This document shows, in pieces, positions 57,743 through 62,207 of a stretch of DNA of 64,000 nt. A program made the position numbers and the translations under genes. The notes beneath the pieces were generated by a model, which did no database searches, was not told the DNA's origin, and was given only the letters and a program-made list of their open reading frames with translations. The stretch's first letter is position 1. Each line of letters begins with the position of its first letter. This stretch comes from Streptomyces cinnamoneus (GTDB lineage Bacteria; Actinomycetota; Actinomycetes; Streptomycetales; Streptomycetaceae), in the NCBI RefSeq assembly GCF_002939475.1, contig NZ_PKFQ01000001.1:5267001-5331000 (forward strand). Direction: 5' to 3'.

Positions 57743-59350
57743 ATGTCACATCACATAACGGAGGCGGTGATCTGGTGCCTGGCCCTCGCGCTGATCGTCG
57801 TCGCGGTCCTGCTGGCGCGCCAGCGGACGATCACCGACGGAGTGCGCAGGCGCGTCGCCCAGCTCGAAGAGAGCCTGCGGGCGCGTGACGAGGAGGTCGG
57901 CCACCTGGTCGGCGTCCGGCTGCCGGCGGTGGCGGACGCCGTCAGCCAGGAAGTGCCGCTGCCCGGACCGCTCGACGAGCGGCTCGCGGGCACCGCCTTC
58001 GCCCAGCACCTCCAGTCCGTGATGGACCTGTTCGCCCGGGCCGTCGAGAAGGCGCAGGCCCGCGCCGACCAGTCGGCCAAGGCCGCGCTCAAGGCGTCGA
58101 TGCGCGCCCTCCAGGGGCTGGCGCACGAACAGCAGCTCGCCATCTCCGAGATGCAGGACCGGCACGACAATCCGGACGTGCTCCGCGACCTGCTGGAGAT
58201 CGACCACGCCAACTCCCAGTTCGGCCGCCGTGCCCAGGCCATCGCCGTGCTCTGCGGCTCCTGGCCCGGCCGGCAGCGCGTCGCCTCCCCGCTCACCGAC
58301 GTGGTCCGGGGCGCCACCTCCCGCATCCGCGACTACCGCCGCGTCCGCGTGCACGGCGGCCAGGAGGACCTGGCCATCGTCAGCCGGGCCGTGGAGCCCG
58401 TGGTCCTCGCCGTCGCCGAGCTGCTCGACAACGCCGCACGCCACTCCCAGCCCAACACCACGGTCGAGGTCAGCCTCCAGCCCGTGCACAACGGCGCCTG
58501 CGTCGTCATCGACGACGCAGGGGTCGGCATGGACGGCCAGGAAGTGCAGCAGGCCGTCGCGATGCTCTCCGGCCGGCGGCCCGTGGACGTCTCCCGCCTC
58601 GGCGACCCCCCGCAGTTCGGCTTCCCGGTCATCGGCGTGCTCGCGGCGCGCTACGGCTTCAGCGTCTCGGTCGACACGCGCTCGCCCTACGGCGGTGTGC
58701 GGGCCGTCCTCTTCCTGCCCAGCGCCCTGCTGACCCAGCTGGAGATCGACGGGCCCAGCACCGCCCCGCTGGGCGGCCGCAACCGCGCCGCCCACGGCCC
58801 CGCCGCCGCGCCACGCCAGCCCGCCCGTACGCATGACGCCCGGCCGCACGCCCGCCCCGAGCGGACCCACGCCCCCGCGGAGCGGGCGCCCCAGCCCCGT
58901 CCGGCGGACGACGCCGCCCCGGCCGCCGCCCCGGACCCGGACGTCCCGAGCGCCCCGGCCGCCCCGCCCGTGATCGGCTCCACGGCCGGCGGACTGCCCA
59001 AGCGCCGCCGCCGGCAGCCCGGAGCGGGCCCGCGCAGCAGGCCCTCGGCGCCGCTGCCCGGCGACATCCCCAAGGAGCGCACGGCCGAGGAGACCGCCCG
59101 GCGCATGGGCGCGTTCGCGCGCGGCACCCGGTCCGGCCGGACCGGCAACCACCCTCTTCCGCACCTCCCTCACCACTCCGGCGGCCAGGCCACCGGACCG
59201 CGGCCCCAGGACCCCGGCCCCGCCCGGGGCCACGGCGGCCCGCCGTCCGGCCAGGTCCCCGGACAGCCGCCCGGCAGCCAGGCATTCCCCCCTCCGCCCG
59301 GTGCCTTCGGCCCCACCCCCGCAGAAGACGAAGGGAACCCGCACGCGTGA
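57743..59350 (+). CDS. Conservon sensor ATPase (CvnA-like histidine-kinase-type protein)
   Basis: This is a 535-residue protein, first of a conservon. One membrane helix (TEAVIWCLALALIVVAVLLA) anchors it at the N-terminus, followed by a long coiled coil. The HATPase domain has ELLDNAARHSQPNT (N box), VVIDDAGVGMDG and FGFPVIGVLAARYGFSVSVD. No standard phosphoacceptor His motif was identified, as expected for the family. The C-terminal ~185 residues are disordered Pro/Arg/His-rich. ATG 57743 has AAGAGGAAT upstream. The stop overlaps the next gene. It probably acts as a membrane-tied partner for the small GTPase below, in GPCR-like complexes by recollection of the cvn literature. Confidence 0.87.
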   Translation: MSHHITEAVIWCLALALIVVAVLLARQRTITDGVRRRVAQLEESLRARDEEVGHLVGVRLPAVADAVSQEVPLPGPLDERLAGTAFAQHLQSVMDLFARAVEKAQARADQSAKAALKASMRALQGLAHEQQLAISEMQDRHDNPDVLRDLLEIDHANSQFGRRAQAIAVLCGSWPGRQRVASPLTDVVRGATSRIRDYRRVRVHGGQEDLAIVSRAVEPVVLAVAELLDNAARHSQPNTTVEVSLQPVHNGACVVIDDAGVGMDGQEVQQAVAMLSGRRPVDVSRLGDPPQFGFPVIGVLAARYGFSVSVDTRSPYGGVRAVLFLPSALLTQLEIDGPSTAPLGGRNRAAHGPAAAPRQPARTHDARPHARPERTHAPAERAPQPRPADDAAPAAAPDPDVPSAPAAPPVIGSTAGGLPKRRRRQPGAGPRSRPSAPLPGDIPKERTAEETARRMGAFARGTRSGRTGNHPLPHLPHHSGGQATGPRPQDPGPARGHGGPPSGQVPGQPPGSQAFPPPPGAFGPTPAEDEGNPHA

Positions 59351-59781
59351 ACGACCACATGAACAAAGAGCTCGGCTGGATGCTCGACGAGGTCGTGAAG
59401 ATGCCGGAGGCCCGGCACGCCATCCTCCTCTCCGCCGACGGCATGCTGCGCGCCCACTCCCAGGGCATCGACCGCGACGAGGCGGAGCGCCAGGCCGCCG
59501 CCCTCTCCGGCCTGCAGTCCATCAGCCGCTCCACCGCCGAGTTCTGCACCCACCCCCACCACCAGGACAGCCCCTGGCGGCAGACGCTCATCGAGTTCGC
59601 GCACGGCTACGTCTTCCTCATCGCCGCCGGCCCCGGCGCCTACCTCGCGGTCTCCGCGGGCGAGGACGTCGACATGGAAGCCGTCACCTACCGCATGCAG
59701 AAGACCGTCGACCGCCTCGGCAAGGAACTGGTCAGCCCGCCCCGGCAGGACGCCTGGCAGGGCCCGGGCAGCCCGGCATGA
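59347..59781 (+). CDS. Roadblock/LC7-domain protein (CvnB-like)
   Basis: This is a 144-residue roadblock protein, second conservon gene, probably acting as a GTPase-activating partner of the downstream Ras-like protein. The fold is visible from LGWMLDEVVKMPEARHAILL, SADGMLRAHSQGIDR and FLIAAGPGAYLAVSAGEDVD. GTG 59347 overlaps the CvnA stop; an internal ATG at 59359 is possible. The stop overlaps the CvnC start. Confidence 0.9.
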   Translation: MNDHMNKELGWMLDEVVKMPEARHAILLSADGMLRAHSQGIDRDEAERQAAALSGLQSISRSTAEFCTHPHHQDSPWRQTLIEFAHGYVFLIAAGPGAYLAVSAGEDVDMEAVTYRMQKTVDRLGKELVSPPRQDAWQGPGSPA

Positions 59782-60140
59782 CACCGCCCGCGTCGCGGCG
59801 CGACAAAGGGCTGGTACGCCCGTACGTCGTCACCGAGGGCCGGTCGCACCCCACGCGCAACACCTTTGACCTGGTCACCCTCGTCATGGCGCACGGCGAC
59901 CGGCCGCTCGGCGGGCTCAGCCCCGAAAAGCGCGCGCTCATGGAACTCTGCCTCGGCGGCGCCCTGTCCGTCGCCGAGATCGCCGGCCACCTGATGCTGC
60001 CCGTCAGTGTCACCAAGGTGCTGCTCGGCGATCTCGTGGACAGCGGCCACCTCACCACCCGGGCCCCCATCCCCTCGGCACAGCTGCCCGAGGCCCAGAT
60101 CCTCCAGGAGGTGCTCGATGGACTCCGTGCTCGCCTCTGA
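59778..60140 (+). CDS. DUF742 protein (CvnC-like)
   Basis: This is a 120-residue protein, third conservon gene. The DUF742 signature LVRPYVVTEGRSHPTRNTFD is followed by a winged-helix-like region, LSPEKRALMELCLGGALSVA then HLMLPVSVTKVLLGDLVDSG, and the ending LLxxVLDGLRARL-like tail (LQEVLDGLRARL). ATG 59778 overlaps the CvnB stop. Its last 23 bases overlap the GTPase gene. Confidence 0.9.
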   Translation: MTPPASRRDKGLVRPYVVTEGRSHPTRNTFDLVTLVMAHGDRPLGGLSPEKRALMELCLGGALSVAEIAGHLMLPVSVTKVLLGDLVDSGHLTTRAPIPSAQLPEAQILQEVLDGLRARL

Positions 60141-60720
60141 CGGAGACCTCTATCTGCCCCGGACCGTGCGCACCGCCGCCAAGATCCTCGTCGTCGGGCA
60201 CTTCGCCGTCGGCAAGACCACCTTCGTCGGCTCGCTGTCGGAGATCCGCCCGCTGCGTACCGAGGAGACGATGACGCAGGCCGGGGCGCTCGTCGACGAC
60301 CTGGCCGGCATCGACGGCAAGACCACCACGACCGTCGCCATGGACTTCGGCCGGCTCACGCTCAGCGACAGCCTCGTCCTCTACCTCTTCGGCGCCCCCG
60401 GCCAGCAGCGCTTCACCCGGCTCTGGCAGGACATGACCCGGGGCGCGCTCGGCGCCCTCGTGCTCGCCGACACCCGGCGGCTGGAGCAGTCCTTCGACGT
60501 CATGGGGCTGCTGGAGGAGCACGGGCTGCCCTACGCGGTGGCGGTCAACCACTTCGACGGCGCCCCGGTCCACCCCGAGGAGGAGATCCGCGAGGCCCTC
60601 GACCTGCTCCCCGAGACCCCGCTGATCACCTGCGACGCCCGCGACCGGATCTCCTCCACCCGCGCGCTCATCACGCTCGTCGAGTACCTCAGCACCCGCA
60701 CCGCCCAGGAGCCCGTGTGA
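60118..60720 (+). CDS. Conservon small Ras-like GTPase (CvnD-like, MglA-type)
   Basis: This is a 200-residue GTP-binding protein, fourth conservon gene. The P-loop is VGHFAVGKTTFVGSLSEI, switch I follows with the TTTTVAMDFGRL segment, switch II is YLFGAPGQQRFTRLWQDM, and base specificity comes from VAVNHFDGA (N-x-x-D variant NHFD) and TCDARDR. Start ATG 60118 lies within the DUF742 gene. The stop overlaps the first P450 start (GTGTGA). It should cycle between GDP and GTP under control of the roadblock and ATPase partners. Confidence 0.92.
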   Translation: MDSVLASDGDLYLPRTVRTAAKILVVGHFAVGKTTFVGSLSEIRPLRTEETMTQAGALVDDLAGIDGKTTTTVAMDFGRLTLSDSLVLYLFGAPGQQRFTRLWQDMTRGALGALVLADTRRLEQSFDVMGLLEEHGLPYAVAVNHFDGAPVHPEEEIREALDLLPETPLITCDARDRISSTRALITLVEYLSTRTAQEPV

Positions 60721-62207
60721 CCTACCGCCCCGACGCCGGCCCCCTGCCGCCCGCCGCCCCGCCGCCGGGCTGTCCGGCCCACCGGGCGCACGGGCCGGCG
60801 ACGCCGCTGTACGGGCCCGACTTCGCCGCGGACCCCCACGCCGTCTACCGGCGGCTGCGGGAGCAGGGGCCCGCGGCCCCCGTGGAGCTGGCGCCCCGGG
60901 TGCGGGCCACCCTCGTCACCGACTACCGGGCCGCGCTCGAAGTGCTGCGCAGCCCGGAACGGTTCGCCAAGGACGCCCGCCGCTGGCGGGCGCTGGCCGA
61001 GGGCCGCGTCGAGGCGGACAACCCGGTCGTGCCGATGATGGCCTACCGGCCCAACTGCCTGTTCTCCGACGGCGACGACCACCGCCGCTACCGCCAGGCC
61101 GTCGACGACAGCCTCGCCCGCATCGACCCCAACGCCCTGCGGGGCTACGTCGAGCGCAGCGCCGACAGCCTCATCGACCGCTTCACCACCCTGGGTGAGG
61201 CCGACCTTCTCGGCTCGTACGCCAAGGTCCTGCCGCTGCTCGTCTTCCAGCAGCTCTTCGGCTGCCCGCCCGAGCTGGGCGACCGGCTCGTCGAGGGCTT
61301 CTCCGGCATCTTCGACGGCGTCGACGCGGAACGGGCCGACGCGCTCATCACCAGCAGCCTCCTGGAGCTCATCGCCCTCAAACGCCGGCAGCCCGGCGCC
61401 GACGTCACCTCCTGGCTGATGGCCCATCCGGTCCAGCTCGACGACGAGGAGATGCTCCACCAGCTCGTCGTCCTCATCGGCGCCGGCACCGAGCCCCAGC
61501 AGAACCTCATCGCCAACGCGCTGCGGCTGCTGCTCTCCGACGACCGCTTCGCCGGCGACCTGGCCGGCGGCAGCATGCCCGTCGAGGACGCCCTCGACGA
61601 GGTCCTCTGGCTCGACCCGCCGATGGCCAACTACGCGGTCCACTACCCGACGGCCGACCTCGACTTCGGGGGCGTGCCGCTGAACGCCGGCGAGCCCGTC
61701 GTCGTCAGCTTCGCCGCCGCCAACACCGATCCCGCCCTGAGCTCCGGCCGCCGCACCGGCAACCGCGCCCACCTCGCCTGGAGCGCGGGCCCGCACCACT
61801 GCCCCGCCAAGGACCCGGCCCGGCTCATCGCGGCGACCGCCGTGGAGAAGCTCCTGGACCGGCTCCCCGACCTCGAGCTGGCCGTCCCCGCCGACCGGCT
61901 GGTGTGGCGCCCCGGCCCCTTCCACCGCGCCCTCACCGCCCTGCCCGTGCGCTTCCCGCCCGTCCCCGTGCCCGTGGCGGCGCCCGCGCCCGCCCACCCC
62001 GGCACCCAGCCGTCCCCACTCGACCGGCCGGCCGCACCCCCGTCCGCCCCCGGCCCGACCCCTGGAGAGAGCCGATGGAACGTCCGACCTGTCCCGTCGC
62101 CATCGACCCCGCCGGCCGTGACATCCACGGCGAGGCAGCCCGCATCCGCGCCCACGGCCCGGCGGTCCCCGTGGAGCTTCCTGGTGGCGTGGTGGCATGG
62201 TCGGTGA
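60717..62207 (+). CDS. Cytochrome P450, CYP157-like, lacking EXXR
   Basis: This is a 496-residue P450, fifth gene of the conservon. The haem-ligand loop is HLAWSAGPHHCPAKDPARLI with the axial Cys. The I-helix reads LVVLIGAGTEPQQNLIANAL, with Pro in place of the usual Thr. The K-helix reads ALDEVLWLDPP, so the normally invariant EXXR is EVLW. This matches the CYP157 family of Streptomyces conservons, known for losing EXXR. Residues from about 415 form a ~80-residue Pro/Ala/Ser-rich tail ending SFLVAWWHGR, which overlaps the second P450 gene by 133 bases. Activity is uncertain. Confidence 0.88.
   Translation: MTYRPDAGPLPPAAPPPGCPAHRAHGPATPLYGPDFAADPHAVYRRLREQGPAAPVELAPRVRATLVTDYRAALEVLRSPERFAKDARRWRALAEGRVEADNPVVPMMAYRPNCLFSDGDDHRRYRQAVDDSLARIDPNALRGYVERSADSLIDRFTTLGEADLLGSYAKVLPLLVFQQLFGCPPELGDRLVEGFSGIFDGVDAERADALITSSLLELIALKRRQPGADVTSWLMAHPVQLDDEEMLHQLVVLIGAGTEPQQNLIANALRLLLSDDRFAGDLAGGSMPVEDALDEVLWLDPPMANYAVHYPTADLDFGGVPLNAGEPVVVSFAAANTDPALSSGRRTGNRAHLAWSAGPHHCPAKDPARLIAATAVEKLLDRLPDLELAVPADRLVWRPGPFHRALTALPVRFPPVPVPVAAPAPAHPGTQPSPLDRPAAPPSAPGPTPGESRWNVRPVPSPSTPPAVTSTARQPASAPTARRSPWSFLVAWWHGR

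Follow-up and report, generated by a model that had tools for sequence, protein, structure and literature searches.

A conserved Trp-rich C-terminal tip in CYP157A-type conservon P450s and its overlap with the start of CYP154

Cytochromes P450 of the CYP157 family are abundant in Streptomyces and are often counted among enzymes (PMC7369989). Their link to conservons has been published, together with the occurrence of EVLW in place of EXXR in CYP157A2 (S. avermitilis) and Svu023 (S. virginiae) and of EQSLW in CYP157C (PMC3599690). In a 2026 paper, P450 accessories of conservons were termed CvnE and found to accompany CvnA proteins without a sensor domain, and CvnE11 was modelled onto the HATPase domains of CvnA11 (PMC13343842); judging by its title, Komatsu 2006, cited in that paper, describes the conservon proteins as a membrane-associated complex. 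What the conservon P450s do has been a question for about 20 years. CYP157C1, which lacks EXXR, is said to have been found by Rupasinghe in 2006 to show a normal P450 CO spectrum all the same.

Two kinds of described gene overlap are also close to the case presented here. In bacterial overprinted genes, the second frame of an existing gene becomes protein-coding (PMC4683798, PMC5810103), as would apply to the tail of the CYP157 studied here, and unidirectional overlaps formed by stop loss (PMC3887535) resemble the CYP157/CYP154 pair in their same-strand arrangement and probable origin. Unlike these examples, the CYP157 case extends an old gene at its C-terminus and is kept in more than 30 genomes, and an inversion that has occurred in nature lifts the constraint. 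In the literature searched, no paper joining CYP157, CYP154C and the overlap was found. The conserved tail tip and its overlap with CYP154 are new here; EVLW and P450-type CvnE proteins were known already.

A CYP157A-type P450 as the fifth conservon gene

The window analysed is a 64,000-nucleotide stretch of Streptomyces cinnamoneus DNA, and all features described below lie on its forward (+) strand. The gene at 60717..62207 has a GTG start and encodes a CYP157A-type P450 (CvnE accessory) of 496 amino acids. It directly follows cvnABCD as the fifth conservon gene and overlaps cvnD by 4 nt. The four genes before it encode a CvnA-type histidine-kinase-like protein with one N-terminal TM segment (57743..59350; Pfam PF02518, HATPase), the Roadblock/LC7 protein CvnB (59347..59781; PF03259), the DUF742 protein CvnC (59778..60140; PF05331, E=5e-37) and the small Ras-like GTPase CvnD (60118..60720; PF03029 and GTPase matches), and these four Pfam matches bear out the conservon setting that was originally predicted. 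The hydropathy of CvnA, taken over the open reading frame from 57704, peaks at residues 14-40, that is, at the N-terminus counted from the ATG at 57743. No sensor domain was found in CvnA by Pfam, and its single TM-like segment (peak at residue 20 of the open reading frame) leaves no extracytoplasmic room. Downstream lies a CYP154-type P450 (62075..63319) with ETLR as an intact EXXR, AGHETT and FGHGVHFCLG, whose best PDB match is CYP154A1 (1odo; E=4e-132, with the alignment starting at residue 8). The CYP157 gene thus resembles the described CvnE accessories in its fifth position after cvnABCD and in its sensor-less CvnA, and by this analogy a regulatory role would be plausible; no C-terminal or amphipathic element is mentioned in the text on CvnE (PMC13343842), unlike the tail found here.

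Homology of the CYP157 protein to P450s was detected by phmmer against PDB (E=1e-40), all of the Foldseek matches listed were P450s (TMt up to 0.86, to CYP154C2), and the P450 core was well predicted by AlphaFold2; PF00067 was not reached in the Pfam search. Assignment to the CYP157A type is based on the P450 fold, the axial Cys, the EVLW motif and the linkage to a conservon and CYP154. The K-helix (DALDEVLWLDPP) carries E295-V-L-W298 (61599..61610, residues 295-298) where EXXR is expected, and its alignment with ETLR of the downstream CYP154 is ungapped. A displaced EXXR, which would have contradicted the original prediction, was looked for and not found in the K-helix; the only E..R of the whole protein is E75VLR, far off. 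The I-helix reads AGTEP (61482..61496, residues 256-260), in which the acid E259 is retained and the alcohol is replaced by P260, giving E-P as the acid-alcohol pair, again as predicted. The haem loop, WSAGPHHCPA (61779..61808, residues 355-364), had been regarded as kept, which is true of Cys362; the Gly of CxG is replaced by Ala, and the loop is only partly conserved. An alignment gap shows that CYP154 and solved P450s have a longer segment ahead of this loop.

W298 was invariant across 43 homologues, exceeding E295, which varies to D. Across 130 aligned rows, the residue at this position is mostly W (81 ExxW, 14 QxxW, 13 DxxW, plus a small number of other forms); ExxR occupies the same K-helix position in only two rows. 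The loss of EXXR in this CYP157 is established; the family itself is not new, and its identity and its association with CYP154 and conservons, correctly recognized at the outset, were already in the literature (PMC3599690, PMC13343842). CYP157A2 and Svu023 are like the window protein in having EVLW for EXXR, a Cys loop that is not strictly GxxxCxG, and conservon and CYP154 neighbours. They differ from it in that a Trp-rich C-terminal helix and dual coding with CYP154 are unreported for them in the literature searched. It should be noted that two CYP157-like conservon P450s adjoining CYP154 (L118 and L121) have an intact EXXR (EVLR), with EVLH in close relatives, and thus the loss of the motif is not universal in the wider family.

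The tail and its Trp-rich tip

A Pro-rich tail of about 80 residues had been noticed in the original prediction. It consists of 83 residues (414-496) after F413 in the last P450 strand, and the Pro-rich character holds for its linker; the conserved Trp tip and a 133-nt overlap with CYP154 had been missed. The linker (61956..62171, residues 414-485) is Pro/Ala-rich and predicted to be disordered, with pLDDT about 35-55, and in tailed homologues it contains 24% Pro and 18.5% Ala. It is followed by the C-terminal amphipathic peptide WSFLVAWWHGR and the stop codon (62172..62207), with a predicted helix at residues 486-493. AlphaFold2 placed a helix exactly on these residues with low confidence (pLDDT about 54). 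The window tip (PWSFLVAWWHGR, then the stop) has counterparts in its relatives such as WSSLAAWWRGQ, GWARLLAWWRGE, GSWWSGFLSWWKV and GWWSSFLDVFRV.

The loci compared came from about 20 genomes and 80 contig loci, and the contig scan was partly seeded with the tail peptide, so that the following counts are not prevalences in nature: at least two Trp residues were present in the final 14 residues of 87 of the 99 tailed homologues, whereas in a background set of 371 other C-termini encoded by the same DNA the proportion was 0.8%. Tips were scored by aromatic counts, which replaced a fixed regular expression that missed 10 loci with an inverted CYP154; in most of these the spacing of the tip is shifted by one (GWAARLLAWWRGE). 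The helical hydrophobic moment (muH) was 0.68 for the tip, versus 0.23 for the linker and 0.35 for tailless relatives, and the net charge of the tip in tailed homologues was +2.4. For the window tip alone muH is 0.55, a value that exceeds roughly 95% of the background. As judged from this conservation, the C-terminal tip of CYP157 is under selection.

Similar tips also occur at a greater distance. Conservon P450s of the EQSLW/EQVLW type have them without CYP154, and across clades (WWSGFLSWWKV, WWSSFLDVFRV, SWWRSLTRWLRRR) only the spacing and the amphipathic, basic-aromatic character are shared. One of these is a same-genome paralogue (L002, G000:C1:1043661-1045019), a conservon P450 with EQVLW and the tip SWWRSLTRWLRRR; no CYP154 was found in the flank examined. 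On the other hand, neither a Trp tip nor a long overlap was present in any of 18 CYP157-CYP154 pairs outside the EVLW clade, which indicates that a conservon P450 can do without the tail. Confinement of the tail to conservons was considered and rejected, given the tips without a conservon in the L084 and L142 types. The former, from Actinoallomurus spadix, is an EVLW-type (AVLW) P450 with the tip RWMRTLVGWWRGQ and no conservon genes detected within 11 kb. The latter belongs to a separate P450 group (L139, L141, L142 and L144) with NRVVM in the K-helix, EXXR absent and the tip SLWRYLTGLIRGGR; no conservon genes were found around its members, and the L142 P450 is flanked by an FAD-oxidase-like and an MFS-like open reading frame. 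In addition, the CYP157 of S. philanthi bv. triangulum (L078) has a frameshift in the tail and has lost the Trp tip, possibly through symbiont decay.

Possible role of the tail and the haem domain

We consider it about evenly balanced whether CYP157A-type CvnE is a haem-thiolate protein of the P450 fold whose tail helix tethers it to the membrane beside CvnA and which gives an input to CvnA. Its P450 domain would have given up the ERR triad and the oxygen-activation pair, and a flexible Pro/Ala linker would join it to the short Trp-rich amphipathic C-terminal helix. This helix could anchor CYP157 on the inner face of the membrane near the membrane-bound CvnA, and the haem domain would most likely feed a ligand or haem-state signal to CvnA and not work as an ordinary monooxygenase. 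That CYP157 binds the membrane, forms a complex with CvnA and has a regulatory function is our inference. A conserved C-terminal tether would offer a concrete and quickly testable handle on the role of conservon P450s.

FtsA and MinD carry C-terminal amphipathic membrane-targeting sequences. The CYP157 tip is like both in that a short amphipathic helix of basic/aromatic character ends the chain, and like FtsA in that the helix stands behind a variable linker. It differs from them in being carried by a P450 and in being unusually rich in Trp, and its membrane binding is a prediction here.

The tip may instead serve to dock onto a partner protein, such as the HATPase domain of CvnA, CvnB/CvnD or a redox partner, a reading that we regard as possible if on the unlikely side. 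Docking motifs are usually built in this way, as a short conserved C-terminal peptide that follows a disordered stretch, and the modelling of CvnE on CvnA HATPase domains (PMC13343842) agrees with this reading. However, because what is conserved between clades is only the spacing and the amphipathic basic-aromatic character, and because similar tips are found in P450s without nearby conservon genes (L084, L142), a membrane surface appears to suit the tip better than a specific pocket.

Somewhat more doubtful is the reading of the protein as a CYP157A monooxygenase of the ordinary kind, for whose function the exchange of the EXXR Arg for Trp would be inconsequential and whose tail would only tune its location or its coupling to CYP154. 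The well-predicted core, the retained haem Cys and the customary classing of this abundant family with enzymes (PMC7369989) are consistent with such an activity, and CYP157 may still be a classical catalyst. But EXXR and the acid-alcohol Thr are both gone, the meander ahead of the Cys loop is shorter than its CYP154 counterpart, W298 is invariant and the operon has no redox partner gene. A domain without EXXR and without this Thr, held on a flexible membrane arm near CvnA, would be more in keeping with a sensor or modulator than with a classical monooxygenase.

The overlap with CYP154 and its history

The end of the CYP157 tail and the start of CYP154 overlap by 133 nt in different frames (62075..62207). 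Within this overlap, the CYP154 box V33-E-L-P-G-G-V-V-A-W-S-V44 (62171..62206) is read in the other frame as the CYP157 peptide and its stop. The open frame alone was rejected as evidence for dual coding; when CYP154 was recoded synonymously, the frame stayed open in 77% of the trials, and the tip motif appeared in 8%. The codons of the box were more informative. Pro36 of CYP154 is encoded by CCT (62180-62182), a codon that makes up 1.7% of Pro codons; it is used at this residue in 31 of the 33 overlap loci, and none of the 20 other conserved Pro columns has it more than twice. At Leu35, CTG was found in none of the 33 and CTT in 12, and CTG is used at least five times at all 41 other conserved Leu columns of CYP154. 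The last Val/Ile codon of the box forms the CYP157 stop in 33 of 33, as GTG, GTA (seven loci) or ATA (five loci), of which GTA and ATA are rare; the remaining Val codons of the box are nearly always GTG. Shared ancestry alone is insufficient for this pattern, because the same genomes serve as the control at the other columns. No dip in synonymous diversity was observed over the overlap as a whole (0.73 in codons 2-44 versus 0.66-0.92 elsewhere), and this undiminished diversity suggests that the constraint is limited to the tip and the stop and does not extend to the linker. On the basis of the site-specific synonymous constraint, it is well supported that the 133-nt overlap is dual-coding.

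A comparison with rearranged loci is possible in 25 relatives, in which CYP154 (66-71% identical) is inverted and lies tail to tail with CYP157. In the box of the inverted genes, CCT was found in 0 of 25, CTG in 10 and the stop-forming codon in four; the V-x-L-P core is retained and the codon choices are lost. The difference in CCT at Pro36 between overlap loci and the inverted plus non-overlapping loci gave a Fisher P of 1e-17. The tip was kept in nearly all inverted loci, with a mean identity of 0.75 versus 0.18 for the linker. By these counts, the codon constraint was released after the inversion of CYP154 while the CYP157 peptide persists. The overlap thus offers an unusually clean natural experiment on bacterial overprinting, in which the CYP157 peptide appears to dictate codon choice in CYP154 and the constraint vanishes where CYP154 is inverted and the peptide stays.

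The tip is also retained in a further clade, where CYP157 is followed by a different P450. This P450 (26-34% identical to CYP154, FGGGxHYCxG type) lies behind a gap of about 100-350 nt (L071-L074, L076, L079, L082, L086, L092-L095 and L099). Loss of CYP154 in the scabies-type clade was also considered and rejected, CYP154 being inverted there. As a general rule, the partnership with CYP154 that was originally suggested is weakened, since CYP157A with its tail also occurs with CYP154 inverted, replaced or absent. On the tree, the overlap loci are basal in the EVLW clade, the inverted and replaced loci are nested, and the inversion is a single change; a single clade of all overlap loci was rejected (p-AU 2.6e-5). 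The trees thus place the overlap earlier than the inversion of CYP154.

The tail would have arisen when the CYP157 frame lost its old stop and read into the start of CYP154. In the shifted frame, VELPGGVVAW of CYP154 reads W-S-[SF]-L-x-x-W-W (W-x-x-L-x-x-W-W), a peptide that was perhaps captured ready-made, after which selection may have maintained both readings; the tail outlived the inversion or replacement of CYP154. Because the tip of the window clade is made from CYP154 DNA, the tips of the distant EQSLW/EQVLW conservon P450s were probably gained independently. Our broadest proposal is tentative and put at less than even: a de novo membrane anchor overprinted on a neighbouring P450 gene, with an independent origin in CYP157C-like proteins (EQSLW/EQVLW), and EXXR-less conservon P450s as membrane-tethered haem sensors for G-protein-linked kinases.

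A DNA or RNA element close to where CYP154 begins, in place of a second protein frame, is a very improbable cause of the CCT/CTT/ATA pattern. The constraint does fall inside codons 1 to 44, a region in which signals for translation may operate, and bulk synonymous diversity is not lower there. However, the constraint falls precisely on the codons from which the other frame takes its W, L, WW and stop, it is the peptide in CYP157 and not the DNA that persists after inversion or loss of CYP154, and the V-x-L-P core, but not the codons, is preserved in the inverted CYP154 genes. Less probable still is a decaying pseudoenzyme or an overlong-ORF artefact of annotation; high G+C would indeed mostly leave the shifted frame open by chance, but the core invariants, the tip and stop conserved over all overlap loci and the tip in nearly all inverted ones speak against it.

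Finally, a 2-nt difference in the linker of one locus (L030, 5001-7571; S. triculaminicus JCM 4242) places CYP157 and CYP154 in one open frame. This may be a natural fusion or an assembly error, and the two genes are unfused in its close relative L041.
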